64,000 nt of DNA from Nitrosococcus watsonii C-113 (GTDB lineage Bacteria; Pseudomonadota; Gammaproteobacteria; Nitrosococcales; Nitrosococcaceae). The notes under the pieces are model-generated. The model did no database searches and was not told the origin of the DNA. It was given only the letters and a program-made list of their open reading frames with translations. This document shows, piece after piece, positions 10,075-60,457 of the stretch (position 1 is its first letter; each line of letters begins with the position of its first letter). A program made the position numbers and the translations under genes. The stretch spans positions 1,239,001 to 1,303,000 of the forward strand of contig NC_014315.1 of assembly GCF_000143085.1 (NCBI RefSeq), written 5' to 3'.

Positions 10075-13000
10075 GAATTACTCTCCAGTTGAGCAACGGT
10101 CCGCTGCTGACGCCGGTTGTAGATGATGGCGTACACGCACGGCACGAAAATCAAGGTAAATATGGTGGCCACTACCAGACCGCCTATGACGGCACGTCCA
10201 AGTGGCGCGTTTTGGGAATTGCCGAGCGACATCGGTATCATGCCGACAATCATGGCCGAGGCGGTCATCAGTACCGGACGGAAGCGGGCAATCCCGGCTT
10301 CGACCGCCGCCTTCAATGCTTCGCCGTGCATTTCGATACGCTCTCGGGCATAGGCGACCACCAGGATCGAGTTGGCGGTGGCCGTTCCCATGGTCATGAC
10401 GGCGCCGGTCAGGGCGGGTATGGAAATATTGGTATGGGTGAGGAACAACATCCAGGCGATGCCCGCCAAGGCGCCAGGTAAGGCCGTGATGATGATGAAA
10501 GGGTCGACCCAGGACTGAAAGTTAACGACAATCAGCAAATAAATCAGCGCGATTGCGGCGATAAGACCGACGATCATCTCCACGTAGGCGCCCTCCATGA
10601 GGCTGGCCTGGCCGTGAATTTCCACTACCGCGCTGTGGGGCAGCTCGTCTTTCATCTCATGGACGACGTGCCTGACATCTTTGAGTATTGCGCCCAGATC
10701 CCGTCCTTCTGGAGAGACATAAATATCGAATAGCGGCATGATGTCGGCATGGGTAACAACCCCTGGGGTGCCGATGGGGGTTACCGTGCCGACATTGCCG
10801 AGCAATTGCAGTTTGTTGCTTGAACCCTCGCCGCCTTCGTTGCTTTGAATGGGCACCGTCAGCAATTGATCAACCGTTTTGAGTTGTGGCTGGGGGATGC
10901 GGACATTAATGGGGTAGGTCATGCCGGTGGCTCGATCCAGCCAGAAGTTCAAATCGATCTGATAGCTGCCAGCGGTTGCTACTAGCATATTGTGGCCAAA
11001 GGTCTTCTGGTTGATATCGACGCCCAGACCGAAGGGCCGATCGGATTCGACCAAAAGAGTCGGCGTATTCATAGTCTGCTGGATGACCACATCCCTGGCG
11101 CCTGGAATCTTGCTTAACTGGCCGCGCAATTTACGGGCGAACACGAAATTATCAACCGGATCGGGACCGTTGATCTGCACATCGATAGGGGCCGGAGAGC
11201 CAAAATTGAGAATCTTTGCGGTCAAGTCAGAAGGCTGGAAGGTAAAATCAGTGCCTGGGTAGCGTTCTCTCAAGCCCTTGCGCAGGGTTTCCCGGTAATC
11301 CCAGACCGGCGATTCCTTATTTTTCAAAGTGATGGTGATATCGCAATCCTGGGAGCCGATGGTTGGGGTTGGAATGAAGGCCAGGTTATGGGGACCGACT
11401 GGTAGGCCGCAATTGTTGATGACATCTTCCACCTGTCCGGGCAGCAGCCGCCTGATGTCATGCTCCACCAGGGAGGCGATGCGGCTTGCGACCTCGATAC
11501 GTGTGCCGAGAGGTGCCCGCATATGCATTTGCATGATATCGGATTTAATTTCGGGGAAAAAGTTGCGGCCGTTGAAATAGAACAGGCTCCAGGACAACAG
11601 GGCTATGATCAACATGACGATGACGGTTAAACCGCGGCGGTCAACCGACCGTTCAAGCACGCCGCCATAGCTATCGCGAAAGCGATTGAACCCGCGTTCG
11701 AAGCCTTGCTGGAAACGGCTGAAGATGTTGCTTGGTTTTTTCTTTTCCTCCGGCACGGGCACGGCAAAATGGGTGCCTCCAACATTATGCATGGCTTCCT
11801 CTTCCGACTCCCGCTCGGTCAGTTCGTAGGTTTTCTGGGCGGAGCGGTCGATTTCCGGATGATCAGGATGGGGATGGTCGCTGGGGGCGTTGGGATCGTG
11901 CAGAATGTATTTCGCCATCGTCGGCAGCAAAGTATAGGACAGGAAAAATGAAGCGATCATGGCGAAAATGATGGCTTTTGCCATGGGCCCGAACAGGAAG
12001 CCGGATACCCCGCTAAGTCCGAACAAGGGGAACCAGACGATCGAGATGCCCAACGTGGCGACAAAGGTGGGTAGAAGGATCTGCCTGGAGCCATCGAGGA
12101 TAGCGGTCTCCAAGGGCTTGCCCATATGGATATGGGTATCAATATTTTCTATTACCACGGTTGCGTTATCCACCAGTACCCCCACCGCTAGGGCCAACCC
12201 GCCCAGAGTCATGACGTTGATCGTCTCTTCAGAGGCGTGCAGGGCAATTAGCGAGCACAGAATGGATAAGGGGATGGTGGTGATGATGATTGCCGTGGGT
12301 CGCCAGGAACCAAGCAGTAGCAGCACGATCAGGCCGACCAAGGCCGCGGCGATGAGAATTTCATGCACCACCTCCTCGATCGAATGCTCCACGAAGCCGG
12401 AAGCATCGTTGACGACCTTGAGCTTCACGCTTTCGGGCACGACCTTTTCAATCCGCGGGATCATTGACTTGACCCCCTCCACCACCTCCAGGGTTGAGGC
12501 CTCGCTGCTTTTCATGACCACAATCATGACTGCTTGCTTGCCTTCCACCAGCACCGGGTTCTTTATCACTCGGCCCATGAGGTTAACATCGGCGACATCG
12601 CGCAGATAAATGTAATTATTGCCCTCTCTTTTGATAGGAATATTTTCGTAATCCTCGACCTTCAGCACGGAGGAGTTGGTCAAAACGACCCAATCGTAGG
12701 AGTAGATTTTCATGTCTCCTCCCGGCAGCACCAGATTTTGCCGGTTGACCGCTTCGTGGACTTCCTCGGGGGTGAGGTGACGTGCCAACAATTTTTCCCG
12801 GTCAATCATGATTCCAATCTGCATGTCCTGCCCGCCATAGGGATGGGGCAGAATCGCTCCCTCTACAGTGACTAGCAGAGGGCGGATGCGCATGATGGAA
12901 AGGTTGTACAGTTCCCCCGGTGTCAGGTCATCGGAGGTTACCTGCAGAGTGGCCACCGGCACTGACGAGGGTGCAAGCTTCATGATCATGGGAGGAGCAA

Positions 13001-13376
13001 TATCCGGTGGTAAGAAATTGACCACCGTTTGGGCAATCGCCGTGATGTCGGCTTCGGCTTGGGCAGGGTCGACGCCGTGTTCTTGCAAAAATATATTGAT
13101 GATACTGCTGCCAAAATAGGAATGGCTGTGGATATACTTGATGCCTTCGACCGTCGAGGTCAAAAACCGCTCGAACATATAGGTGATCCGCCCTTCTATG
13201 TCTTGCGGCAGCATGCCATCGTAGGCCCAGACCACCGAGGTGACGGGGATTCTGATACTCGGGAAGATATCGGTCGCTGCGTTGCGCACCGACTGAAATC
13301 CGAGTATCACAATAAGAATGGAAAGAACAACGAAAGTATAAGGCTTTCGTAGGGCAATAACGACAAGCTCGTTCAT
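10071..13376 (-). CDS. RND-family inner-membrane efflux pump
   Basis: This 1101-aa proton-driven transporter is of AcrB/CusA architecture: membrane helix 1 at the N-terminus, two large periplasmic loops, and two six-helix halves. The helix-4 proton-relay region reads VGVLVDNATVVIENI, so only one of the two usual acidic residues is present. The helix-10 region GAVMTMGTATANSILVVAYA lacks the usual lysine. Between the halves is a cytoplasmic loop (about 490-560) with a His/Asp/Pro-rich stretch (SDHPHPDHPEID) and a charged segment. It is the first gene of a three-gene operon with adaptor and channel, both downstream. The substrate is unknown. The relay differs from both classic HAE1 and HME pumps, so neither label is safe. 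Confidence 0.9.
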   Translation of the reverse strand: MNELVVIALRKPYTFVVLSILIVILGFQSVRNAATDIFPSIRIPVTSVVWAYDGMLPQDIEGRITYMFERFLTSTVEGIKYIHSHSYFGSSIINIFLQEHGVDPAQAEADITAIAQTVVNFLPPDIAPPMIMKLAPSSVPVATLQVTSDDLTPGELYNLSIMRIRPLLVTVEGAILPHPYGGQDMQIGIMIDREKLLARHLTPEEVHEAVNRQNLVLPGGDMKIYSYDWVVLTNSSVLKVEDYENIPIKREGNNYIYLRDVADVNLMGRVIKNPVLVEGKQAVMIVVMKSSEASTLEVVEGVKSMIPRIEKVVPESVKLKVVNDASGFVEHSIEEVVHEILIAAALVGLIVLLLLGSWRPTAIIITTIPLSILCSLIALHASEETINVMTLGGLALAVGVLVDNATVVIENIDTHIHMGKPLETAILDGSRQILLPTFVATLGISIVWFPLFGLSGVSGFLFGPMAKAIIFAMIASFFLSYTLLPTMAKYILHDPNAPSDHPHPDHPEIDRSAQKTYELTERESEEEAMHNVGGTHFAVPVPEEKKKPSNIFSRFQQGFERGFNRFRDSYGGVLERSVDRRGLTVIVMLIIALLSWSLFYFNGRNFFPEIKSDIMQMHMRAPLGTRIEVASRIASLVEHDIRRLLPGQVEDVINNCGLPVGPHNLAFIPTPTIGSQDCDITITLKNKESPVWDYRETLRKGLRERYPGTDFTFQPSDLTAKILNFGSPAPIDVQINGPDPVDNFVFARKLRGQLSKIPGARDVVIQQTMNTPTLLVESDRPFGLGVDINQKTFGHNMLVATAGSYQIDLNFWLDRATGMTYPINVRIPQPQLKTVDQLLTVPIQSNEGGEGSSNKLQLLGNVGTVTPIGTPGVVTHADIMPLFDIYVSPEGRDLGAILKDVRHVVHEMKDELPHSAVVEIHGQASLMEGAYVEMIVGLIAAIALIYLLIVVNFQSWVDPFIIITALPGALAGIAWMLFLTHTNISIPALTGAVMTMGTATANSILVVAYARERIEMHGEALKAAVEAGIARFRPVLMTASAMIVGMIPMSLGNSQNAPLGRAVIGGLVVATIFTLIFVPCVYAIIYNRRQQRTVAQLESNS

Positions 13377-13474
13377 AATAACTTACCATGGATGTTAATT
13401 AGGACATGCCCATAACCCGTGCAGCATCAATGCCAATTTGTTTATACAAATAAAAATCAATAGCTTGTATGAGG

Positions 13475-13498
13475 TTTAAGCCAGTACACTGGCTTAAA
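13475..13498. promoter_or_regulatory. Palindrome between RND operon and MauE-like gene
   Basis: Arms of 11 bp (13475-13485 and 13488-13498, TTTAAGCCAGT / ACTGGCTTAAA) surround a 2-bp spacer. The site lies about 100 bp upstream of the RND pump start and about 175 bp upstream of the divergent membrane-protein gene. Size and position fit an operator for a dimeric repressor such as a TetR-type regulator, but no regulator gene is in the neighbourhood. Read as RNA it could also fold as a hairpin. Confidence 0.45.
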
Positions 13499-13670
13499 TC
13501 ACCCACGGTAATTCTTGAGAAAGGCTGAAAACCACCATATTTTTGAACACAGTTGTATTTTGAACTATGTTTTAATTATTAGGATTGGATAGGTTTCACA
13601 GGGTTGGTTGAGTAGTCGTACACAATTGGCCCTACTCTTCTTCAAATTGGGATAGGGGGATAAAGAGATT

Positions 13671-46304: not shown

Positions 46305-46618
46305 TGACTCTTCCGGGATTAGAGTCCCTCCGGCAGAAGGTAGAGGACTCCACTCAGTTTATCAACTGGCTCGCCGAGAAGGTGCGCACCAGGAATTGGG
46401 TGGCACTGCTCATGCTCTGCTTTGTGGCTGCTGCGGTCTTACTCAACCCCGTTTCAATCAAGGCGCTTTATCCTTGGCTGATGGGCCAGGACCTGCCCGA
46501 GGATTTCTTGGACGGGTATCCGTGGGCTTATGGGGTACTGTTGATCGCACTTTTTTTGAGCGCCCTGATCCTTGCTATTCGAGTCAAGGCCCGCGAGCAG
46601 GAAATCTCCACCCATTGA
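46304..46618 (+). CDS. Small two-helix membrane protein, possibly the N-terminus of the STAND protein
   Basis: This 104-aa frame starts with ATG overlapping the upstream stop (TGATG). Residues 1-30 are amphipathic. Two hydrophobic helices follow (about 32-50 and 74-92), and then a basic segment. The frame ends within the first codons of the NTPase frame. The NTPase frame lacks a good start of its own, and its first conserved block (PPIDLSERSAIKGL) begins exactly here, one frame over. A single gene broken by a +1 frameshift is as likely as two overlapping genes. No known family is recognised for the helices. Confidence 0.55.
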   Translation: MTLPGLESLRQKVEDSTQFINWLAEKVRTRNWVALLMLCFVAAAVLLNPVSIKALYPWLMGQDLPEDFLDGYPWAYGVLLIALFLSALILAIRVKAREQEISTH

Positions 46619-48608
46619 TCTCAGCGAACGCAGCGCCATCAAGGGCCTGTGGTCCTTCACCTATGAAGATGCCGACCTTTTTAAGCGTCTGGGACGAACC
46701 GACAGTCTGCGTAAATGCCTGGATAATGTCACCCACCCGGACTTTCGTTTCGGGGTCCTCTCTGGGGAGTCCGGCTGTGGCAAAACCTCTTTCCTTCAGG
46801 CCGGGCTCTGGCCCGGTCTGGAAAGCCGGGGCTTTCGTTGCCTCTACGTCAAATTAACCGAGCGCGACCCTCTTGCGGTCATTCGGCAGGGGCTGCCGCA
46901 ACAGACAGAGATTCCTCAAGCCCCGGTGAATGAGCTGGATTTCCCTGCCATTCTCGAGGCGACCGCCGGCGGTGAGCCGGCGTCCTCCGACAATAAGGGG
47001 GTCGTGCTGGTGCTTGATCAATTCGAGCAGTTTTTTGTCCACCAGCGCTACAAAGCCGACCGCCAACCGTTTCTGGAGGCTTTGGCCGCTTGGTACCGCC
47101 AATCCGGGCATCCCGTCCGGCTCCTAATCAGCATCCGCAAAGATTATGTGGGCTACCTGTATGAACTTCAGGAAGCCATGGGCTATTCGCTCGGCCCGAA
47201 TGAAAGCTTCTATCTGGAGAAGTTCGAACCCCGGGAAGCCGCCAGCGTGTTGCGGGTGATGGCGGAAACCGAAGCTTTGGGGTTCGATGAAGGGTTTGCG
47301 CAAGAGCTCACCGCCCAGGAACTGGCCAGCCCCCGGGATGGATTGGTTTCCCCGGTCGATCTGCAAATTCTGACCTGGATGATCAAGGCCCAAAAAGGGG
47401 CCGAGCGAAAAGCCTTCGATCGTTCCACCTACCAAAAGCTCGGCGGGATCGAACACCTGCTGGAGCGCTTCCTGCAACAGGTGCTCCAGGCGCGGGAAAC
47501 CGAGGCGCGCCGACAGGCGGCGGTCAAGGTGTTGCTGGTCTTGGTGGATCTGGAAAGCAGCACCCGGGCGGGAGTCCTGACGCTGAGCGATCTTCAATGC
47601 AAGCTTTCCGGGTTATTGAGGGCTGAAGAGGCCAAGGAAGCCGTGCACTGGTTGTCGCGGGGGGACATCCGGCTGGTCACGGCCAGACACCAGGAAAAGG
47701 AATCGGGCTATGAACTGGCCCATGAACGTCTTATTCCCGCCTTGCGCCGACTGGCCGGTAAGACCTTGTCCGAGGCCGACAAAGCCAACCAACTCTTGGA
47801 CCGGCGGGTCAACGAATGGATGGGGAATCAGCGCGCCGCGCGCTATCTGCTGCGTTGGCGGGAATTGAGGCTCATTCAAAAACAACACCCCTATTTGGTG
47901 TGGGGGACCAAGCGAGCGCAAAAGGAAGCCTTGATTGCAAAGAGCCGACAGCGCCGAAACGGGGGGTTGGCAGCGGTCGGGATGGCGGCGGTTATTGCCG
48001 TCTCCCTTACGACCATGTATTACAGCGACCGAGGACAGATCTGGTTAATGGAGCGGGACTTGCGCTTCCTGGCGCAAAAAACCAGAGACCCGGCGCTGCT
48101 GAAAAAGAGCGCCCTGGCTTTTTTCGCCAGAAATCATGTCCAAAAGGCTTTGGAGGTGGTGGAGCGTATTCGATGCCCGCAGGACAAAGCTCGTGCTTTG
48201 CAGGCGTTGGCCGAGGCCGCAGGGCAACTTGAGCAATCCGAGCAGGCGGTGGCGTGGCTAAAGGCTGCGGGAGAAGCCGCCACCGGGATTAAAGATTCCG
48301 GGGACAAAGCTCGTGCTTTGCAGGCGTTGGCCGAGGCGGCGCTGAAACTTGAGCGATCCGAGCAGGCGGTGGCGTGGCTGAAGGCTGCGGGAGAAGTCGC
48401 CACCGGGATTGAGGATTCCGGGGATAAAGCCAGGACCTTGCAGGCGCTGGCCGAGGCAGCCGCTAAAGCCGAAAGCTGGCGGCTGGCCCGTGAAATAGCG
48501 GATATGATTCCGTCAGTTGATGGGCGTATTCAGACGTTCTCCCAAATTCTTATGATTTGGGCGGAAAAAGAAGCTTTGCCTGCTGCCAAGAAAAAAGCAG
48601 CTTCTTAA
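46572..48608 (+). CDS. nSTAND-type NTPase with membrane segment and repeat domain
   Basis: This predicted NTPase of about 660-678 aa has Walker A SGESGCGKTSF (about residue 64), Walker B VVLVLDQFEQFF, and an ISIRKDY sensor-like stretch, which together match the nSTAND1 pattern (DQFEE-type Walker B). A winged-helix-like region (about 300-400), a membrane helix (about 465-483, AAVGMAAVIAVSLT) and C-terminal helical repeats of 40 residues (DKARALQALAEAA...) follow. STAND proteins act as regulated switches in signalling and in antiphage or conflict systems. The only start codon in frame is TTG at 46572, without a clear ribosome site, so the true N-terminus may lie in the upstream frame. The gene is GC-richer than its surroundings, which suggests transfer. 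Confidence 0.72.
   Translation: MLFESRPASRKSPPIDLSERSAIKGLWSFTYEDADLFKRLGRTDSLRKCLDNVTHPDFRFGVLSGESGCGKTSFLQAGLWPGLESRGFRCLYVKLTERDPLAVIRQGLPQQTEIPQAPVNELDFPAILEATAGGEPASSDNKGVVLVLDQFEQFFVHQRYKADRQPFLEALAAWYRQSGHPVRLLISIRKDYVGYLYELQEAMGYSLGPNESFYLEKFEPREAASVLRVMAETEALGFDEGFAQELTAQELASPRDGLVSPVDLQILTWMIKAQKGAERKAFDRSTYQKLGGIEHLLERFLQQVLQARETEARRQAAVKVLLVLVDLESSTRAGVLTLSDLQCKLSGLLRAEEAKEAVHWLSRGDIRLVTARHQEKESGYELAHERLIPALRRLAGKTLSEADKANQLLDRRVNEWMGNQRAARYLLRWRELRLIQKQHPYLVWGTKRAQKEALIAKSRQRRNGGLAAVGMAAVIAVSLTTMYYSDRGQIWLMERDLRFLAQKTRDPALLKKSALAFFARNHVQKALEVVERIRCPQDKARALQALAEAAGQLEQSEQAVAWLKAAGEAATGIKDSGDKARALQALAEAALKLERSEQAVAWLKAAGEVATGIEDSGDKARTLQALAEAAAKAESWRLAREIADMIPSVDGRIQTFSQILMIWAEKEALPAAKKKAAS
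48183..48480 (+). repeat. 120-bp tandem repeat in the NTPase C-terminus
   Basis: Two near-identical copies begin at 48183 and 48303, and a partial, more diverged third begins at 48423. The period is exactly 120 bp, or 40 codons. Each unit encodes a helical hairpin starting DKAR. The copy-to-copy similarity is much higher than normal for old TPR-like repeats, so the expansion is recent. Confidence 0.9.
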
Positions 48609-51848: not shown

Positions 51849-52919
51849 CTACGTTAAAATATTGTTAACTGCAGTGAGAAATCGTTGCATGTCTTGTACG
51901 GAAATGGCACCCATGGTGGATATCCGGAAGATTTTGGCTACTAATCCTCCTTGCCCAGCGTAGATGATGAAGCCTTGTTGTTTGAGTTCATCGTGTAATG
52001 TCTCGTAGTCAATATTCGGCGGCAAATGATAGGATCGTAGGACGCAAGACGATGATCCACGGGGTAACAATGGTTTGATATCCATTTGCCTGAGTCCATC
52101 GGCAACTAAATTAGCTAAGTGGCGATAGTGTTCTCCTCGGGCCTGCCAACCGCCAGCGTCGGTCAATTCATGCAAGGCTTCCGATAGGGCATAAAAACAT
52201 TGGATGGCTGGCGTGAAGGGGGTATTTCGCCGATCCTGCTCTTGGCAGTAGGTTGCTAAATTTAGATATAGGCTGCGGCAGGGAGGAGGTGTGGGCAGGC
52301 TATCCCGGCGTATTATGACAAAGGCGGCACCTGGCGCACCGTGCAAACATTTATTAGCAGTGGCTGCTAAGGCGCTGATTCCCCATTCTTCGAAGGCCAG
52401 AGCCTCAGCACCAAAGCTGCTGACGCCATCGGCTAGCAATTGGGCATTGTACCGGCGGCAAAGTGCGCCAATTGCCGCCAGATCATTGAGTCGTCCGGTA
52501 GTGGTTTCGTGATGGACAGCAGCCACATGGGTAATGCAGGTCTCCTCTGCGAGCATTTGTTCTAGTTGCGGGATATCAATTTCGGCTCCCCAGTTATGGT
52601 GCAGGGCAGTATGAGGGATGCCATGAATTTGAGCAATTTTGGAAAGCCGCTCTCCATAGATCCCATTTTCAATAACTAGCAGTTTTCCTCGATCTGGAAC
52701 TAGGCTGCTTATCATGGCTTCCATGGCGGCGGTGCCGGAGCCACTTAGCAGTATGGCTGCCCAACGTTCGGGATCAAGCCCATAGATAGCCAATAGTCGC
52801 TTCCGGATCTGGTCCTGCAAATCGGCAAACTCCGCTTCCCGATGGCAGAGATCGGGTTGCAGTAAAGCTGCTCGGACTCGTTCGCTAAGATTAACCGGAC
52901 CTGGATTGAGTAGAATCAT
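51849..52919 (-). CDS. phnW: 2-aminoethylphosphonate:pyruvate transaminase
   Basis: This 356-aa class V PLP enzyme opens with LNPGPVNLSERV, typical of the PhnW/alanine-glyoxylate group. The Schiff-base lysine is in ATANKCLHGAPG (about residue 188), with the acidic residue in LLADGVSSFGA. In catabolism it converts 2-aminoethylphosphonate to phosphonoacetaldehyde. Next to PEP mutase and phosphonopyruvate decarboxylase it must work in the biosynthetic direction, amino-transferring to phosphonoacetaldehyde to make 2-AEP. No phosphonatase (phnX) is nearby. It is the last gene of the seven-gene block, overlapping its upstream neighbour by 4 bp. Confidence 0.88.
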   Translation of the reverse strand: MILLNPGPVNLSERVRAALLQPDLCHREAEFADLQDQIRKRLLAIYGLDPERWAAILLSGSGTAAMEAMISSLVPDRGKLLVIENGIYGERLSKIAQIHGIPHTALHHNWGAEIDIPQLEQMLAEETCITHVAAVHHETTTGRLNDLAAIGALCRRYNAQLLADGVSSFGAEALAFEEWGISALAATANKCLHGAPGAAFVIIRRDSLPTPPPCRSLYLNLATYCQEQDRRNTPFTPAIQCFYALSEALHELTDAGGWQARGEHYRHLANLVADGLRQMDIKPLLPRGSSSCVLRSYHLPPNIDYETLHDELKQQGFIIYAGQGGLVAKIFRISTMGAISVQDMQRFLTAVNNILT

Positions 52920-54070
52920 GGAATCCTCTTTAAGTGGGCTATTAACCGAGCTTTAGTCTCTGGCGGAGCTAAGGGGGGACGGGGTAGATCCGCGGGAGCT
53001 CCCGGGCGGGTTTTAAGTTGGGCAAAACGGGGACCGTTAGAATCGGGGATCGAAAATAATTCATCCAGCAAAGACAGGCTGTTTCCTTCCAGGGCCAAGG
53101 AGTAACCGCAAGCCTTCGCTACCTGGGCAAAGGAGAAGTTGTTGGAAACTGTTGCCTGGGCTCCCGTGGAATCATGAACTTCATTGTCCAGAAGGATATG
53201 GATTAAATTAGAGCCGCCGTAGGTACCCACTGTTGCTAAATTGCCCATACGCATCAAGGCGGCGCCATCACCATCAATGACCACTACCTGTAAATCCGGG
53301 CGGACTAGGGATAAGCCTAAGCCCAGTGAGGAGGCGCAGCCCATAGAGCCCACCATATAAAGTTGATTGGGCCGATCCTCAAGGGCGCATAACTCTCGGC
53401 CCGTGTAGCCTGTGGTAGCAATGACCACGGTATTTTTTTCCGGCGTTCGGGAAAGCAGAGCAGCTAAAGCCTCGGAGCGGGAGCAAAGAGAACCAGCCTG
53501 GTAATAGCGATGTAGTTCGTTATTTTGATGGGTGACGCGTTTGAGAACTTTACTGCCGCTTGCACCATAGGGGGCTACGGAATCTTTGCGCATAATAAAG
53601 GCGTAGGGGCGCTCTGCTTGGCGCATATATTGGTTGGCCCGCCCCAAGGCTGAGTGGATTTGCTTGCTTTCCAAAGGAAAATACTCCCAGGGAATGTCCA
53701 TGGTTTCCAGCAGTGAACCGGTAATTTGTCCCATAAGCTCATGTTGAGGTTCATCTTGAAGCGTTGGGTCCCCTCTAAGGGTAATAATGAGGAGTATCGG
53801 GATATGGAAGGTATGGGTCAGGGAGGTCAGTGGATTAACGGCATTACCGAGGCCAGAATTCTGCATCATGGCAATAGCTGGCTGCCCGCCTAAATAGGCA
53901 CCCGCAGCTAGCGCTACAGCATCACCTTCATTGGCCGAAGAAACATACGTTAAATCGTTGCGCTCGATAACATAGTTAATAAAAGGAGTGAGGAAGGAGC
54001 AGGGAACGCCTCCATAACAGCTAAACCCGCCTTCGCGAGCACCGTCGATAAACTCATGGGCTTCTATCAT
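52916..54070 (-). CDS. aepY: Phosphonopyruvate decarboxylase
   Basis: This 384-aa thiamine-diphosphate enzyme turns phosphonopyruvate into phosphonoacetaldehyde and CO2, the irreversible step that pulls the unfavourable PEP mutase reaction forward. The N-terminal PYR-type domain shows the catalytic Glu in SSANEGDAVALAAGAYLGG and QNSGLGN. The C-terminal PP domain has the ThDP motif GDGAALMRMGNLATVGTYGG, ending in DNEVHDSTGAQ. The start chosen (ATG at 54070, MIEAHEFIDG) gives the usual N-terminus; an in-frame ATG at 54148 would lie within the previous gene. It overlaps phnW by 4 bp and begins 11 bp after the mutase-nucleotidyltransferase gene. Confidence 0.92.
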   Translation of the reverse strand: MIEAHEFIDGAREGGFSCYGGVPCSFLTPFINYVIERNDLTYVSSANEGDAVALAAGAYLGGQPAIAMMQNSGLGNAVNPLTSLTHTFHIPILLIITLRGDPTLQDEPQHELMGQITGSLLETMDIPWEYFPLESKQIHSALGRANQYMRQAERPYAFIMRKDSVAPYGASGSKVLKRVTHQNNELHRYYQAGSLCSRSEALAALLSRTPEKNTVVIATTGYTGRELCALEDRPNQLYMVGSMGCASSLGLGLSLVRPDLQVVVIDGDGAALMRMGNLATVGTYGGSNLIHILLDNEVHDSTGAQATVSNNFSFAQVAKACGYSLALEGNSLSLLDELFSIPDSNGPRFAQLKTRPGAPADLPRPPLAPPETKARLIAHLKRIP

Positions 54071-54081
54071 GGGAATCCTAA

Positions 54082-55752
54082 TTATTGATGACCGTGGGCA
54101 AAGTCGCCAGCGCGAGTTAGATCCTCCATGTTGTTTACATCCAGCCAATGGCCGTTAATGTAGAGAACCTTGATAGGATGGCCGCTGGCGACCAGATGAT
54201 TGAATAAATCGGGCATTGCAAGTTGGGGAAAATTCTCTTGTTGCCGTAACGCTTGGAGAGCATCGAGTAGCCATTGGCGTCCTTCGCCCGCGACTCGTAC
54301 CATGCCGATCCAGCGACCGTGGGATTGTTTACCGAGCTGCTCTTTTTGCGCCTCAATGCGAAGGAGGTCCACATCCTGGCGGAACAAGGAACGGTCATCG
54401 GGCTGGGAGCAGAAAGCCACATCCCGGATGTCATCCTTCATGCCAGGAGAAAGGGCAGAATCCACCACGACCACAATGTTTCCTGGCACGTGGCGCAAAT
54501 CATTTAGGATATAGCTGCGGAATAGCAGGTCGCCATAGGTAATGATGGTATCTTCCGTTAAGCTCTCAAGGGCACAGGCAAGGGAGGATAACTCACTGCT
54601 ATGGCCGTAGTCTGGATTATGAATGAGGGAAATCCCTTTGACATCAATAGCTTCTGGTTTATAGCCAGTCACTACCGTGATGCGATTAATGTGCTGGCGT
54701 TTAAATTCGTCTACCAGGCGGCGTAGTAGTGGGATGCCAGCCACCGGCAGCATGACTTTGGGGCGTTCTTGAGTGAGGCTTTCCAGCCCTTTGCCTTGGG
54801 TGGCTCCCAACACAATCGCTCCCGTCTCGGCTTCTGGGGCAGTGCTGTAGCGGCGTTCAGCAGCTAGTAATTCTTCGGCTCCTTGGAGACGGAAGATTTC
54901 ACTGACCGGTGCAACCCGATCCTCAATGTTAACCAGGGTTTGCGTGGCATGGATTTCCCGCGCCACTTGGGCCATCGCGGCCGCTGCGGCCCGAATTAAA
55001 TGATTGGCCCAAATGACGGTGCTGATGCCCGCCTTGCGGAATACCTCGGTGGGCGTGCTGTAGTATTTAGTGGGGACAATAATGAGCGGTGCCCGGTTTC
55101 CCCATTCCCTGGCGAAGGCCAGAATCTCATCGGCTTGGGAGAGCTTACTGTGGATTAAGATGGCATCCGCGCCAGCCCGATGGTAAGCTTCTGCGCGGCG
55201 CAAGGCTTCATCCAGCCCCCAGCCCGCGATTAAAGCTTCGACTCGTGCCACGATGGAGAAATTCGGATCGCTTTGGGAATCTTTCCCAGCCTTGATCTTG
55301 CCGCAGAATTCGTCTATCTCAGCTAAAGGCTGGCGCTCGCCACCAATGAAGCTGTTAGTTTTAGGAAAGATTTTATCTTCGATACAAACGCCGGCAATCT
55401 CCCTTTGTTCTAGCTTTTTCACCAACCGGCGCAAGTTATTAAAGTTTCCATAGCCTGTATCGCCATCCAGGAGAATAGGAACGGTAGTAGCGTCGGACAT
55501 AAACTCCAGCATATCCACTATCTGGGTCCAGCTAGCCTCATTATTGTCCCGCACGCCAAACTGGGAAGAAATAGCCAGGCCGCTGGCCCAAATTCCCTTA
55601 AACCCGGCTTCTTCAGCAATTCGGGCACTGAGGCCATTGTGGGCTTCCAGTAAAAACTCCGTAGGTTTAGATTCCAACAAAGCCCGTAATTGGGCAAATT
55701 TTGAAGGTCGGTCTTTAAAAGGTTCAGCCGCGGGCAAGGGTACAGTGCTCAT
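54082..55752 (-). CDS. pepM: PEP mutase fused to a nucleotidyltransferase
   Basis: This 556-aa bifunctional protein makes the carbon-phosphorus bond. The N-terminal domain (about 1-295) has LDGDTGYGN and the PEP mutase signature [11 protein letters not shown] (from about residue 125), where the EDKxxxxxNS pattern separates mutase from isocitrate-lyase-type lyases. The C-terminal domain (about 308-550) is an NTP-transferase fold with [20 protein letters not shown] as the nucleotide loop and TYGDLLFRS near the metal site. Its loop is a variant of the normal GxGxRLxPxT...PK. By family, such domains activate 2-AEP with CTP (PntC-like). So the first and the activation step may be encoded in one chain. 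Cytosolic. Confidence 0.9.
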
Positions 55753-55783
55753 ATCAGGGTCAATATTTTTGGTGTCAAGAAAT

Positions 55784-56554
55784 TTAAATGTTAGCGTTTG
55801 GTGCAGACGGCTCTAGGGACTGTAAGTAGGGTAAAATGCTATTATTAGCCTGCTGGATATCTTCCGGAAAATCAATTTCTATCCAGGGCAATCCGGTGAT
55901 ATCCTCGATCCCAAAACGCTCCGGCGTTGCTAGCAGCAAATCCCGCACGGCCTCTTCATGGGGTGCCTCTTGGTGTGCTTGATCGAGGTAGTGTTGGCAC
56001 CGGTCAGCGAGTCGGGAGGCCATTTCTTCCGCGAAGCGAAAGAAGCCTACCGACTCGCCTATTGTATCGTAGTGTAGTTCTGCTGGGATCTGTTTACGAA
56101 ATTCCACCAGAAGCCCCTTCCGAAGGCAGAGTTTGACCGGTTCTTCGCCAGGTTCGAAGTCGCGGTCAAGTAGAAAGCAATTGCTGTGGGGGGATTGCAG
56201 GAGGCGTTGCCCTAGGCGATAGTCATAGAGCACATCCGCATCCATTAATAAAATCTCTCCCCCGGCGCGGAGTTGATCCCGCAAGGACCATAAGCTGACG
56301 ATGCTGCCTGCATTAAAATCAGCATTATATACAGTTTGTGGGCGAGGGAGGAATGCCAGTCTATCGAGTGCTTGTTCCACCTGCTCAGCCTGATAGCCTA
56401 CCGCAATGGCGATATCTTGAACGCCTAACCGGGAAAGGATGAGAAGGTGGCGCTCAAGTAGGCTGTGGCCGCCGAATTCCAGCAAGCATTTGGGTTGGTT
56501 ATGGTGATTGGCAAGGCGTTTGCCGCGACCGGCGGCTAGAATAAGGGCGCGCAT
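55784..56554 (-). CDS. Stand-alone nucleotidyltransferase
   Basis: This 256-aa NTP-transferase of the sugar-nucleotide/CTP-phosphonate type has canonical motif [20 protein letters not shown] at residues 6-25 and [10 protein letters not shown] as the metal-binding aspartates. The tail has [12 protein letters not shown], found in phosphonate- and phosphocholine-type cytidylyltransferases. It may use CTP and 2-AEP or a related phosphonate or phosphate alcohol. It lies 22 bp after the hopanoid phosphorylase gene and 31 bp before the fused mutase, at the seam between the two pathways. Two nucleotidyltransferase domains in one operon need different substrates, or one has lost activity. Confidence 0.83.
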
Positions 56555-56576
56555 GGTTTGCTAGCATTCACTCAAT

Positions 56577-57347
56577 TTATGGCGCCAGGAGAGTAGGGCC
56601 TATCCTTGCCACTACCGTCCGTAAAGTGGCCCTTGCAGCCTGAAAATACCTTGCAAGTTGCCATAAATCAAGCATTTCCCAGGGGCGCTTAAGCAGGTTT
56701 GCCAGCAAGGGGAATAGCTGTAACTGCCCTTTGCTATCCAGGGCCTTTAGAGCGGATGGGGGCAAGGCAGTTTGAGCCGGATCGGCTATCGCCCGGATCA
56801 CCAAAAATGGGACACCGGCGCTAGCTGCCGCTTTGCCCACGGCTGCGCTTTCCATATCCACCGCCACACAGCCTGTTTGCCGATAAAGGCGGGCTTTTTC
56901 CTCTGGCGAGGAGAGGATAGCTTCTGTGTGCTGGAGGGGTGCGCTGGATAAGAGTAATGTTCCTTCCAATCGCTCTAAAAGGGATTGCAGCCAGCAGGGA
57001 TCAGTGCCGTATTGCTCTCCATTGAGGAGGCGTACCTGCTCTGGTAGAAGCAACACTCCTGGTTTCAGGTGAGGCGCTAGGCCACCCGCGACTCCCCAGC
57101 TAATTAGCGCTTTGGCGCCTGTGGATAATAGGTTTTCGGCAGCCCGGTGGGCCCGTTCAGGACCGATACCGGAAAGCTGCAAATGAAGTGAGTCCGACAA
57201 AACAATCTTATCGCCAGGGCGCAGCCGCTGTTTGGCAAGGCAGCCGCCTTCCGCTGGTAAGGCGGCCACCACGCCGGTCCGCGTAGACGATAAGGGTAGC
57301 GCCACAGTCGTTTGGCGGACCGCTTTGCGAGCGTTTGTGATCAACAC
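56577..57347 (-). CDS. hpnG: Hopanoid-associated nucleoside phosphorylase
   Basis: This 256-aa phosphorylase-superfamily protein has GVAGGLAPHLKPG (about residue 86) and VDMESAAVGKAA (about 163), the phosphate- and base-contact motifs of the PNP/MTAN fold. HpnG removes adenine from adenosylhopane in the synthesis of extended (C35) bacteriohopanepolyols. The start is GTG; it overlaps the squalene-hopene cyclase stop by 7 bp, so the two are tightly coupled. HpnH, the radical-SAM partner that makes adenosylhopane, is not in this window. It is placed between the cyclase and the phosphonate genes. Confidence 0.85.
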   Translation of the reverse strand: MLITNARKAVRQTTVALPLSSTRTGVVAALPAEGGCLAKQRLRPGDKIVLSDSLHLQLSGIGPERAHRAAENLLSTGAKALISWGVAGGLAPHLKPGVLLLPEQVRLLNGEQYGTDPCWLQSLLERLEGTLLLSSAPLQHTEAILSSPEEKARLYRQTGCVAVDMESAAVGKAAASAGVPFLVIRAIADPAQTALPPSALKALDSKGQLQLFPLLANLLKRPWEMLDLWQLARYFQAARATLRTVVARIGPTLLAP

Positions 57348-59320
57348 TGCCGATTAAGATGGTTGCGATAGCGGGCGAGGGCCCACAGGGGGAAAATTTT
57401 ATCATAGCCATGGTATTTAAGATAAAACACTCGGGGAAATCCTGGCGCATTAAAGGCTGGATGGTCCCACAGCCCATCCTCTTGTTGAACCTGCAGGAGG
57501 TAGGTAATGCCTTTTTTAACGGCCTCGCTATTGGCTTCCCCTACGGCCATGAGGGCAAGCAGGGCCCAGGCGGTATGAACGGGTGTGCTTTCTTGATAGT
57601 GCCCCGCAAGTGAGCTGTCGAAGTACGAGTAGTTGTCTTCACCCCAGCCTCCATCTAAGCGTTGAACTTGTTTCAGCCACTCAACCGACTTCCGAATAAA
57701 TCCTTCTTGGGGGTCGATACCCGCCTGCTCCAAGGCGGTTAGGATGGACCAGGTTCCATAAATATAATTGGTGCCCCAACGGCCAAACCAGGAGCCATTA
57801 GGTTCTTGTTCCTGGCGCAGATAATCGAGGGCGCGCTGCAAGGGTTCTGCATATTGGGGGGCTTTTAGACGCCCTAGCAATACGATGCAGCGGGCAGTAA
57901 CATCAGCAGTGGGAGGATCGAGCAGCGCCCCATGATCGGCAAAGGGGATTTCATTTAGATAATAATGGGTATTATCTGCTTCGAAAGCAGCAAATCCGCC
58001 ATTGCGAGATTGCATCCCGCAGAGCCAATCGCTGGCTCGCCCTATAGCTTCCCCGTAGTGCTCCGGGGTTGCGGCTTGATCCATGGCCCAGGCTACGAGA
58101 GCTGTATCGTCGAGATCAGGGTAGTAACTATTATTATACTGAAAGGCCCAGCCACCGCCTTTAAGGTGAGGGTGTTGCTCCTGCCAATCTCCAGGCTGTT
58201 CCAGAATTTGCCGTTCCTTGAGCCAATCGAGGGCGCGGATGACCGGTGCCGTGGTGTGCCCGCCCTCGGTTTCCTGGAGGGCCAGAGCAGCTAAACCCGT
58301 ATCCCAAACCGGTGACAGGCAGGGCTGACAGGAAGCGGAACTCTGCTCTTCTATCACCAGATTCTGAAGTGCTTTTTTAGCCTGAACCCGCCTCGGATGA
58401 TCCGGGCTATAACCCAGCAGAATCAAAGCCTCATGGGCATTGACCATGGCGGGGAAAATTCCCCCGAGACCATCTTCTCCGTTTAAGCGTGCGGTAAACC
58501 AGGTTTCCGCTTTTTTGAGGGCGCGGCGCCTAAGCATCGATGGAATCAATGGCTCCAGCAGGCGGGCCGTGCGTTCCACCGAAAGTAAAATTTTGTTGAG
58601 GCGGGAGCGTACCGGAAAATAGTGACGTTCCTGCTCCGGTGGAACAGTGAATAACTCTTGGACATGCACATTCCGGGGGTTTTGGGCCTGCGCCTTAAGG
58701 CTGTAAAGAATAGCCAGGGGAACCATAACTGTCCGCGACCAATAGGAGACTTTACTCAAATGGAAAGGGAACCAACGGGGCAGGAGCATGATTTCCACGG
58801 GAATGAAAGGAACTCCACGCCAGGGAATCTGGTTAAACATAGCCAAGGCAAGGCGGGTGAAAACGTTCGCGCGGGCGCCGCCACCCTGGGCGAGAATGGC
58901 TTCGCGGGCCCGGCGCATGTGGGGCGCATTGGGATCATCCCCGGCCAATTTTAGGGCGTAGTAGACTTTTACTGAACAGCTAATGTCCAAGTCGCCCCCT
59001 TCGTACAGGGGCCAGCCCCCATGGCTGGCTTGCTTGGCGCGCAAGCGAGCGGCGAGTTTACGCTCGATTTCCAGTTCCAGTTCGCCCGTGAAGTGAGTCC
59101 AAAGAATATACTCAGCAGGGATGGTGCAGTCTGCTTCCAGTATAAAGCACCAATGGCCATCTGCCTGCTGGAGTTTGAGTAAAGCATCCCGGGCAGCGGT
59201 GATGGCTCCACCGAGCTCTCTAGGGCGAGTATCTTGGTGTAAGGTTTCAGTGGCTGGTGCGGCGGTGGCAATATCTATGGCGCCGGCTGATTCCGGAGCT
59301 TGTCGAAGTGCGCGGGTCAT
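57341..59320 (-). CDS. shc: Squalene-hopene cyclase
   Basis: This 659-aa membrane-associated cyclase converts squalene to hopene/hopanol. The catalytic acid motif is DLDD (DxDD, about 404-407) in YPDLDDTALVAWAMD. Several QW repeats are visible (QxDGHW near residue 53, QQEDGLWDHPAF near the C-terminus, and repeats such as QRLDGGWGEDNY). The length is in the normal range. ATG start at 59320, 36 bp after the squalene synthase stop. The family's second-half motif GTxGDFxxG-like stretch (PNGSWFGRWGTNYIYGTW) is typical. Confidence 0.95.
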   Translation of the reverse strand: MTRALRQAPESAGAIDIATAAPATETLHQDTRPRELGGAITAARDALLKLQQADGHWCFILEADCTIPAEYILWTHFTGELELEIERKLAARLRAKQASHGGWPLYEGGDLDISCSVKVYYALKLAGDDPNAPHMRRAREAILAQGGGARANVFTRLALAMFNQIPWRGVPFIPVEIMLLPRWFPFHLSKVSYWSRTVMVPLAILYSLKAQAQNPRNVHVQELFTVPPEQERHYFPVRSRLNKILLSVERTARLLEPLIPSMLRRRALKKAETWFTARLNGEDGLGGIFPAMVNAHEALILLGYSPDHPRRVQAKKALQNLVIEEQSSASCQPCLSPVWDTGLAALALQETEGGHTTAPVIRALDWLKERQILEQPGDWQEQHPHLKGGGWAFQYNNSYYPDLDDTALVAWAMDQAATPEHYGEAIGRASDWLCGMQSRNGGFAAFEADNTHYYLNEIPFADHGALLDPPTADVTARCIVLLGRLKAPQYAEPLQRALDYLRQEQEPNGSWFGRWGTNYIYGTWSILTALEQAGIDPQEGFIRKSVEWLKQVQRLDGGWGEDNYSYFDSSLAGHYQESTPVHTAWALLALMAVGEANSEAVKKGITYLLQVQQEDGLWDHPAFNAPGFPRVFYLKYHGYDKIFPLWALARYRNHLNRQC

Positions 59321-59356
59321 AATGCGATCCCCTTGGGTTTATTAATTCCATCAAGC

Positions 59357-60457
59357 CTATTTCTCTGATGACGCTTGCGGCGCAGATATTTGTTTACTGT
59401 CGTTGCTATTTGCCTCTAGTGGTATAAAAGGCACACCTTTTGCCGCAAGTTTAAATAGGAATGTTAATACCTTATCGTGATTTGCTGCAACACTTGTTAA
59501 GAGTATTGTTGCTTTTACGCTACGACGGGAGATCTTGACTTCCCGGCTAGCTGAAAAATTCCGGCGCCGATGGAGCTTGCGTAATGTCAGCATGGCAAGG
59601 CCAATAGCCCACAGACAAAAACGTCGGATACCTCCTTCTTCTGGAGGAATGAGTAGAGTATAGGTTAAGGCGTTGCGGAGATGGGCATGGGTAATGCCAA
59701 TGAGGTGTTGGAGGCCATCGCCAAAGGTGGATTGATAGTGGCCGGGTTGAAGGTTATCCAAATTAAAGCCCGCTTGTTCGAAGATAGTGCGGGGCAACCA
59801 GCAGATTCGCCTTTTTCGATCATCCCAGATGTCCTTGAGAATATTGGTCATTTGCAAACCTTGGCCAAAAGAGACCATGAGATTGCGCAGGGCTTCGCGG
59901 TTGCGGTTGATCCCAGGAGAGTAATCGCAAAAAAGCTCCGTCAGCATTTCGCCGACGACGCCGGCGACAAAGTAGCAATATCGGTCCATAGCCTCCATAT
60001 CGGCTAGACCCCGTAAGCTGGCGGTATTCTGAAAGTGAGGCATACCGTCGCACATAATGCGCACGCAGCGTTCTAGGGCTGCGCGTTGGCGGGAATTGAA
60101 GCTGTGGGTAATGCGGATAATCCGCGGCGTATTTCGAATGAGTTCCCGTTCGGCGGCTAGGGTATGCTCTGATAGTAAAGGGTAGAGGGCGTGGGCAAAA
60201 GCCTCAGCCGAGGATTGCCCTGCGACTACCGTAACGAAGTCGTTGGAAAAGTTTTTTTTCTGGGTGGTGCTGAGGGTGGGTTCATCCTCAATGGTATCGG
60301 CTATGCGGCACAGGAGATAGCCATTAGCTACCACCTCTTGCAAGGGGGAAGGGAGCTGGGGAATAGTAAGGGCAAAGGTACGGGAGACGCCAGGAAGAAT
60401 ATAATCCTGGTAGTTTTTGTCGGTTGAATCGTAACTAATATGATAAGAGCCCATCAT
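59357..60457 (-). CDS. Squalene synthase (eukaryote-like)
   Basis: This 366-aa enzyme of the trans-isoprenyl-diphosphate head-to-head class has first aspartate motif DTIEDE (54-59) and second motif MTNILKDIWDDRKRR (about 200-214), with GVSRTFALTIPQLP near the N-terminus. These features match farnesyl-diphosphate farnesyltransferase of eukaryotes and of hopanoid-making methanotroph-type gammaproteobacteria, and not the HpnC/D/E route. A C-terminal hydrophobic stretch may anchor it to the membrane. It makes squalene from two farnesyl diphosphates and supplies the cyclase downstream. It is the first gene of the seven-gene block; I see no clear ribosome site before its ATG-ATG start. Confidence 0.88.
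   Translation of the reverse strand: MMGSYHISYDSTDKNYQDYILPGVSRTFALTIPQLPSPLQEVVANGYLLCRIADTIEDEPTLSTTQKKNFSNDFVTVVAGQSSAEAFAHALYPLLSEHTLAAERELIRNTPRIIRITHSFNSRQRAALERCVRIMCDGMPHFQNTASLRGLADMEAMDRYCYFVAGVVGEMLTELFCDYSPGINRNREALRNLMVSFGQGLQMTNILKDIWDDRKRRICWLPRTIFEQAGFNLDNLQPGHYQSTFGDGLQHLIGITHAHLRNALTYTLLIPPEEGGIRRFCLWAIGLAMLTLRKLHRRRNFSASREVKISRRSVKATILLTSVAANHDKVLTFLFKLAAKGVPFIPLEANSNDSKQISAPQASSEK

Follow-up and report, generated by a model that had tools for sequence, protein, structure and literature searches.

A gene block in Nitrosococcus pairing hopanoid with 2-aminoethylphosphonate genes, and a candidate phosphotransferase that may join the two products

The gene block and its encoded enzymes

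A 64-kb stretch (the window) of the three-contig, 3.37-Mb genome of Nitrosococcus watsonii C-113 (here G000) contains a block of seven minus-strand genes in which genes for hopanoid formation adjoin genes for the synthesis of 2-aminoethylphosphonate (AEP). The second contig of this genome resembles plasmids from N. oceani (96.4%) and N. halophilus (84.6%). Read from 60457 to 51849, the hopanoid part (sqs, shc and hpnG) is followed by the phosphonate part, constituted by a stand-alone, PntC-like nucleotidyltransferase (NT), a phosphoenolpyruvate (PEP) mutase (PEPM) fused to a second NT domain, a phosphonopyruvate decarboxylase (PPD) and an AEP aminotransferase (AEPT) (Table 1). Coordinates, order and short gaps or overlaps are as a first-pass annotation of this DNA had read them: 36 bp separate sqs from shc, shc and hpnG overlap by 7 bp, the hpnG/NT and NT/PEPM gaps measure 22 and 31 bp, and PPD and AEPT overlap by 4 bp. 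The PEPM/PPD gap is 11 bp, given a PPD start at the ATG at 54070, a candidate preceded by AGGA; a longer open reading frame (ORF) begins with a TTG at 54148. The next gene, pepN, lies 235 bp beyond the block.

Table 1. Genes of the seven-gene block, with window coordinates and the matches on which their names are based
Gene	Coordinates	Strand	Basis
Squalene synthase-type gene (sqs)	59357..60457	-	Pfam SQS_PSY 191.5 bits; below HpnC and HpnD cut-offs
Squalene-hopene cyclase (shc)	57341..59320	-	TIGR01507 830 bits vs cut-off 431; DLDDTA in translation
hpnG, hopanoid-associated phosphorylase	56577..57347	-	TIGR03468 250 bits vs cut-off 187
Stand-alone PntC-like NT, proposed CTP:AEP cytidylyltransferase	55784..56554	-	PF12804; best PDB relative 6pd1
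PEP mutase fused to LicC-like NT domain	54082..55752	-	TIGR02320 408 bits vs cut-off 320; PF12804 in C-terminal half
Phosphonopyruvate decarboxylase (PPD)	52916..54070 (ORF open to 54148)	-	TIGR03297 475 bits vs cut-off 313
AEP aminotransferase (AEPT; PhnW/AepZ type)	51849..52919	-	TIGR03301 476 bits vs cut-off 361

Five of the seven proteins pass NCBIfam cut-offs, including all three enzymes of AEP synthesis (TIGR02320, TIGR03297 and TIGR03301 for PEPM, PPD and AEPT, respectively). The catalytic motif of PEP mutase, EDKXXXXXNS, is present in the window protein and in 16/16 aligned proteins, and the best PDB relatives of the fusion are PEP mutase 1m1b and, for its second domain, LicC 1jyk. The sqs product stays below all NCBIfam cut-offs (TIGR01559, 105 against 287 bits; HpnD and HpnC still lower), and it is named squalene synthase-type only, Pfam SQS_PSY being reached and TIGR01559 not. 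The role described for HpnG in the available text of PMC12583986 is the conversion of adenosylhopane to ribosylhopane. No minus-strand terminator-like sites lie between the block genes (14 sites in total on both strands; 10.2 in shuffled sequences), and promoter-like sites in the block are at the shuffled level (9 against a mean of 8.2). The absence of internal terminator-like sites is consistent with a single transcript, without demonstrating one, and the scan as such is uninformative.

At the seam between the two parts, an enzyme of a cytidine monophosphate (CMP)-activating type had been suspected from the first reading, and the stand-alone NT indeed proves closest to PntC, the AEP cytidylyltransferase, which uses cytidine triphosphate (CTP). 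It reaches no NCBIfam cut-off and is placed by its solved relatives: the single sequence matches Treponema PntC-AEPT (6pd1) with E 1.9e-9, and a profile of 17 NT proteins ranks Treponema PntC (6pd1) first, with E 8e-43, and LicC behind, with E 3e-19. Within the motif LAAGxGxR...PK of the MobA-like fold, L6, A7, A8, G9, R13, P21 and K22 are invariant in 17/17 proteins. Clusters in which a fused NT occurs alongside a separate one are already on record (PMC6697681). In several AEP loci, Ser/Thr kinase-like genes are found near or adjoining the NT (L083:1766-3058, with BLAST relatives in L073, L075, L082 and L085); the one in L083 carries a cyclic-nucleotide domain.

Distribution of the pairing

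Within the family, the block is intact in five of six genomes, namely the present one, three of the same genus (G001-G003) and one of another genus (G005). The adjacency, whose absence from other genomes of the group the first-pass annotation would have taken as a refutation, is therefore conserved there, and elsewhere the pairing recurs in other arrangements. In the sixth genome, G004, sqs-shc-hpnG is followed by 1.7 kb without match to the block proteins, and then by PPD and pepN. A degraded PEPM/NT remnant between hpnG and PPD was considered and rejected, the gap consisting of two ORFs unlike block proteins. No PEP mutase was found in the whole genome of G004 (best match of 31% identity, like the weak second matches of G000-G003), and neither AEPT nor NT was found at its locus, the search for these two covering the locus only. 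HpnL is present in all six family genomes, and its occurrence in G004, which has no PEP mutase, rules it out as an AEP-specific gene. In the available text of PMC12583986, hpnL occurs in most hpnH-bearing Alphaproteobacteria and is absent in 13/48.

The association was then assessed in 369 genomes sampled evenly across the class Gammaproteobacteria. A strong mutase match was obtained in 25, from which G270 (non-fusion) was dropped, leaving 24 fusion genomes; G268 and G423, whose PEPM-NT is of a divergent type, were retained in all counts. The cyclase gene shc occurs in 52 of the 369 genomes, 21/24 of those with the fusion against 31/345 of the others (Fisher p 3e-17, an optimistic value, the genomes being related), and the 21 genomes having both span 11 families. 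The fusion genomes without shc are G368, which is 78% complete, and G268 and G423, in which mutase and NT are divergent and no hopanoid gene is nearby. At least one core hopanoid gene (sqs, shc, hpnG, hpnN, hpnA, hpnH, hpnB or hpnM) lies near 12/24 fusion loci, the window's own included, several of the stretches examined ending at contig ends. The fullest cluster, L094 (the locus of G220), reads sqs-shc-hpnG-PhyH-hpnN-hpnA-hpnL-NT-PEPM/NT-PPD-AEPT-(dxs reversed)-hpnH-hpnB-hpnM, with HpnH, HpnL, HpnN, HpnM and HpnB confirmed by NCBIfam, which likewise confirms HpnA of the neighbouring genome G068.

Beyond this sample, a scan of named genomes gave 570 relatives, the best 80 of which were used: 54 loci from Burkholderiales and other betaproteobacteria, 17 from gammaproteobacterial or unplaced metagenome-assembled genomes (MAGs) and 9 from cyanobacteria. 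Five loci are common to both sets (L094=G220, L122=G388, L128=G269, L133=G398 and L143=G148), so the sets are not independent. Among these best 80 loci, 15 have a core hopanoid gene and 41 a core gene or hpnL. In the cyanobacterium Brasilonema (L096, L099), the AEP genes are followed by hpnA and hpnH, with NCBIfam support for L096. In a phylum sample, the mutase was found in 15/398 genomes, and G749, outside the class, combines a PntC-like NT with one PhyH-type and one hpnL-like gene. A chance adjacency confined to a single genome is ruled out by the conservation of the block and by the recurrence of the pairing in other families and in Brasilonema. The evidence thus supports a link between the fusion and hopanoid genes for part of this class and for some cyanobacteria, and not for all users of PEP mutase.

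A CDP-alcohol phosphotransferase tracking both pathways

Clustering of the neighbouring genes drew attention to a protein of about 200 aa with a cytidine diphosphate (CDP)-alcohol phosphotransferase domain (PF01066, 54.9 bits against a cut-off of 22), referred to below as the transferase. The signature D-x2-DG-x2-AR-x8-G-x3-D-x3-D is complete in 12/13 aligned copies, including that of G000, and the predicted model (mean pLDDT, the predicted local distance difference test, of 90) has as its top fold match AF2299, a CDP-alcohol phosphotransferase. In G000 the orthologue is located outside the window, at G000:C1:3090626-3091216, and is 41-59% identical to the copies found in clusters.

In the class sample, the transferase was detected in 20/369 genomes: 19/21 with fusion and shc, 1/31 with shc only, 0/3 with the fusion only and 0/314 with neither. 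The sole shc-only genome with the transferase, G065, is 75% complete, and no mutase was found in it. All five family genomes with PEP mutase have the transferase (E 4e-69 or better), and no orthologue was found in G004, only a generic relative (E 7e-6). It is also present in 28/28 genomes (20 Burkholderiales and 8 cyanobacteria) that were chosen from the 80 loci for having the fusion, and whose hopanoid capacity we presume. Two or more copies exist in L096 (3545-4237 and 9191-9865), G177, G398, G148 and G291, and these may differ in acceptor or headgroup.

The surroundings of the transferase vary. A clear hopanoid gene lies near it in 13/20 genomes, a count that leaves out weak neighbours in G176 (HpnA-like, 37%) and G302 (HpnI-like, 39%) and becomes 15/20 with them; in 11 of the 13, hpnN and/or hpnA lie within 150 bp. 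In G291, G119, G356, G252, G153 and G230, the transferase adjoins hpnN and/or hpnA and the AEP genes are on other contigs, several of the genomes with such separation being fragmented MAGs; it adjoins hpnN and/or hpnA in G065 as well. The clearest case is G291, with sqs-shc-hpnG-PhyH-hpnN-transferase-hpnA at a distance of over 20 kb from either contig end. In LB400 and two further Paraburkholderia examined, transferase, dioxygenase, hpnL and NT are grouped, and PEPM-PPD-AEPT lie elsewhere. Among the cyanobacteria, L096 has a gene scoring as HpnI, the transferase and a PhyH-type gene within 4.5 kb, and in Nostoc and Scytonema (L360, L361) a relative of this glycosyltransferase gene is within 2 kb of the transferase. 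Between the HpnI-scoring gene and the transferase of Brasilonema, a B12-binding radical S-adenosylmethionine protein is encoded (L096:1959-3611), whose nearest NCBIfam is a PhpK-type P-methyltransferase, below cut-off, HpnJ being also matched below cut-off.

Taken as a whole, the gammaproteobacterial transferase is near AEP genes in some genomes and near hopanoid genes in others, and it is nearly always absent from genomes that lack either pathway. Both its shifting company and this absence are what would be expected of an enzyme that joins the two products. The distribution also bears on the idea that AEP decorates lipopolysaccharide or capsule and that the shared locus is historical, with no chemical link to hopanoids. 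Bioinformatic surveys predict most phosphonate clusters to serve cell-wall glycans and lipids (PMC6697681, available text); however, the two gene sets lie together in several gammaproteobacterial families and in Brasilonema, the fusion co-occurs with shc, and mutase and transferase are jointly absent from G004, all of which makes this explanation very improbable.

A possible aminoethylphosphono-hopanoid pathway

What we observe directly is which genes are present, their order, their conservation and co-occurrence, and the conserved motifs of their families; on this basis we consider it probable that the block unites the two halves of a single lipid pathway, in which CMP-AEP would be transferred to a hopanoid alcohol by the dedicated phosphotransferase. 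Sqs, Shc and HpnG, together with the unlinked HpnH, would form a C35 hopanoid whose side chain is a polyol. The C35 gene set (Shc, HpnH and HpnG) is present in G000, where HpnH, HpnN and HpnL (above cut-off) and HpnM (by similarity) are encoded at C1, about 1.493-1.499 Mb; because of the presence of these four genes, a hydroxyl-bearing C35 side chain is expected in G000. PEP mutase, PPD and AEPT would provide AEP through phosphonopyruvate and phosphonoacetaldehyde, which is established chemistry for these families. The transferase would later move AEP from CMP to a hopanoid hydroxyl, a reaction chemically normal for the CDP-alcohol phosphotransferase fold. As for CMP-AEP itself, whose formation is established for PntC (PMC6697681), it would be made by the PntC-like NT, perhaps with the fused NT domain. 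The product would be an aminoethylphosphono-hopanoid, for example bacteriohopanetetrol-AEP (C37H68NO6P, calculated [M+H]+ 654.486), and HpnL and HpnN would aid its movement towards the outer membrane. For the corresponding form with hydroxy-AEP, the calculated [M+H]+ is 670.481.

The first-pass annotation had suggested that the set could make CMP-AEP and attach it to a hopanoid side chain or to a co-made lipid. The recurring pairing, the PntC-like enzyme at the seam and a transferase that tracks both pathways strengthen this suggestion, which had taken into account neither the transferase, encoded elsewhere in the chromosome, nor a published remark on Roseomonas (see below). Which substrates the NT and the transferase use, and what the acceptor and product are and where the latter is located, is inferred, the hopanoid as acceptor because of gene company and co-occurrence. 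To the wider claim, that a class of aminoethylphosphono-hopanoids (in some lineages possibly with 1-hydroxy-AEP) exists in Nitrosococcus, other gammaproteobacteria, Burkholderiales and some cyanobacteria, made by a CMP-AEP:hopanoid phosphotransferase often encoded between hpnN and hpnA, we would give a somewhat better than even chance.

A number of observations weigh against such a pathway. In the NT, the residue at the position of the AEP-contacting Glu104 of Treponema PntC is Asp, as in LicC, and the position of Glu196, which contacts the AEP amine in that enzyme, aligns ambiguously. In G004, PPD is intact and 73.5% identical (L037, G004:C1:1413000-1432000, 10788-13614) and PEP mutase is absent, leaving a decarboxylase without its known substrate source. 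Three of the 21 genomes counted as having shc (G119, G252 and G356) possess only a distant cyclase (35-38% identity), each with other hopanoid genes in the stretches examined. By contig coordinates, about 1.8 Mb lie between the block of G000 and its transferase, whose surrounding 18 kb contain no hopanoid gene; none is near the transferase of G068, G190 and G142 either (in G142, only AEP genes are), only hpnL is nearby in G269, and the surroundings of the transferase in Chlorogloeopsis and Symploca (L359, L362) likewise showed no hopanoid gene. G220 (87% complete), which has the fullest cluster, and G388 (98% complete) possess both pathways and lack the transferase. The transferase counts themselves derive from a profile built mostly from copies beside AEP genes and applied to the 369 genomes with a threshold of E 1e-20 and at most 8 candidates scored per genome. 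As a control for relatedness, a tree of shc from 52 genomes was used, which requires at least 7 changes of state for the fusion and at least 8 for the transferase; once the remaining five genomes of the family were included, independent pairs taken on supported branches gave about 5 in the same way and 0 in the opposite one (median p 0.06), so that the direction is right and the 6 pairs found are too few to prove the link alone.

The gene neighbourhoods outside the class sample must be read together with a second explanation, according to which the same transferase would place AEP on an ordinary glycerolipid, converting diacylglycerol to a phosphonolipid, and hopanoid genes would be neighbours through a shared membrane role and regulation. 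Among the 54 betaproteobacterial loci, only 2 (both Pandoraea) have a core hopanoid gene, 28 have hpnL and 26 neither, and outside the class no core hopanoid gene was seen in the stretches examined around 12 mutase loci from 10 genomes; all of this would suit a glycerolipid acceptor, as would the presence of the diacylglycerol enzymes CEPT1 and CPT1 among the PDB relatives of the transferase by sequence profile, after AF2299 and IPCT-DIPPS. However, a glycerolipid carrying AEP needs no shc, yet the transferase was found in none of the sampled genomes having the fusion only or neither gene, and it often lies beside hpnN or hpnA. The fold ranking, with AF2299, IPCT-DIPPS and phosphatidylinositol phosphate synthases before CEPT1, does not decide the acceptor. 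On balance, the glycerolipid explanation seems rather unlikely.

A third possibility is that AEP enters the hopanoid in another form, for example N-linked, through reductive amination of ribosylhopane whose ring has opened, or on a sugar placed by HpnA, HpnB or HpnI and served by the transferase. HpnA (sugar epimerase-like), HpnB or an HpnI-like glycosyltransferase is encoded near the transferase or the AEP genes at some loci, and hpnA, hpnB and hpnL are of unknown function according to the available text of PMC12583986. N-linkage would require no CMP activation, yet an NT and the transferase accompany the set, and this third possibility is judged quite improbable.

Compared with known systems, the proposed hopanoid-acceptor pathway resembles the Pnt pathway of Treponema denticola and Atopobium rimae (PMC6697681, available text), in which PEPM, PPD and AEPT act with a MobA-like cytidylyltransferase that forms CMP-AEP, presumably to tailor the cell surface, and in which fusion of PEPM to a MobA-like domain is common, as here. 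The characterised Pnt examples are accompanied by LicD-like or glycosyltransferase genes (PMC6697681), whereas here hopanoid genes and the gene of a CDP-alcohol phosphotransferase are the partners; neither 'hopan' nor 'CDP-alcohol' occurs in the main text of that article. The pathway is also analogous to the tailoring of bacteriohopanepolyol headgroups by HpnI/HpnJ/HpnK and HpnO, in which a polar group is added to the C35 side chain in an hpn context; the headgroups known to us and described in the available text of PMC12583986 are an amine, glucosamine and a cyclitol, none with phosphorus having been found there. The transferase shares signature and, in its predicted model, fold with AF2299, IPCT-DIPPS and CEPT1 and differs from them in being a short, stand-alone subfamily tied to hopanoid and AEP genes.

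The pairing of shc with PEP mutase is itself prior art. In Roseomonas, shc was found linked to a PEP mutase gene and an 'undiscovered terpene-phosphonate' was proposed (PMC8776678, 2021); the pairing is the same as here, and the available text contains no transferase, mechanism or wider distribution. No report of an AEP-hopanoid was found among the open-licence papers listed in the searches, subscription papers being mostly outside this coverage. Within the reach of these searches, novelty extends to the transferase and its co-occurrence pattern, to the occurrence of the pairing in Nitrosococcus, other gammaproteobacteria and Brasilonema, and to the specific product.

Hopanoids are bacterial counterparts of cholesterol and are used as molecular fossils and sterol analogues. 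Standard hopanoid workups use derivatised or periodate-cleaved extracts, and if the proposal is correct, ionic phosphonate hopanoids would exist that such workups could miss. AEP would also have a biological sink in ammonia oxidisers, Burkholderiales and cyanobacteria, and membrane lipids resembling sterols would be tied to the natural pool of phosphonates. Finally, a function would be offered for a gene inside the hpn operon, explaining part of the unassigned hpn set.

With regard to a further modification, a gene for a PhyH-type dioxygenase lies between hpnG and hpnN in several clusters. For a cyanobacterial relative, the nearest NCBIfam is methylphosphonate hydroxylase, below cut-off; its reading as a proven phosphonate hydroxylase was not accepted, given this score and the lack of any phosphonate enzyme among the PDB matches. 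A PhyH-type copy is found away from the block in G000 and three other genomes of the genus, and none was found in G004 and G005. In G003 this gene is in two pieces about 1 kb apart (L272/L273, G003:C1:3500860-3502620), being in one piece in G000-G002. In Burkholderiales, a HalD-like dioxygenase with weak PDB matches only adjoins the transferase. As a lead only, PhyH-type or HalD-like dioxygenases may hydroxylate the AEP headgroup or the hopanoid side chain in some lineages.

Elsewhere in the window, at 46572-48608, a 678-aa ORF resembles an NTPase and ends, towards its C-terminus, in near-identical tandem repeats, as read from its translation only.

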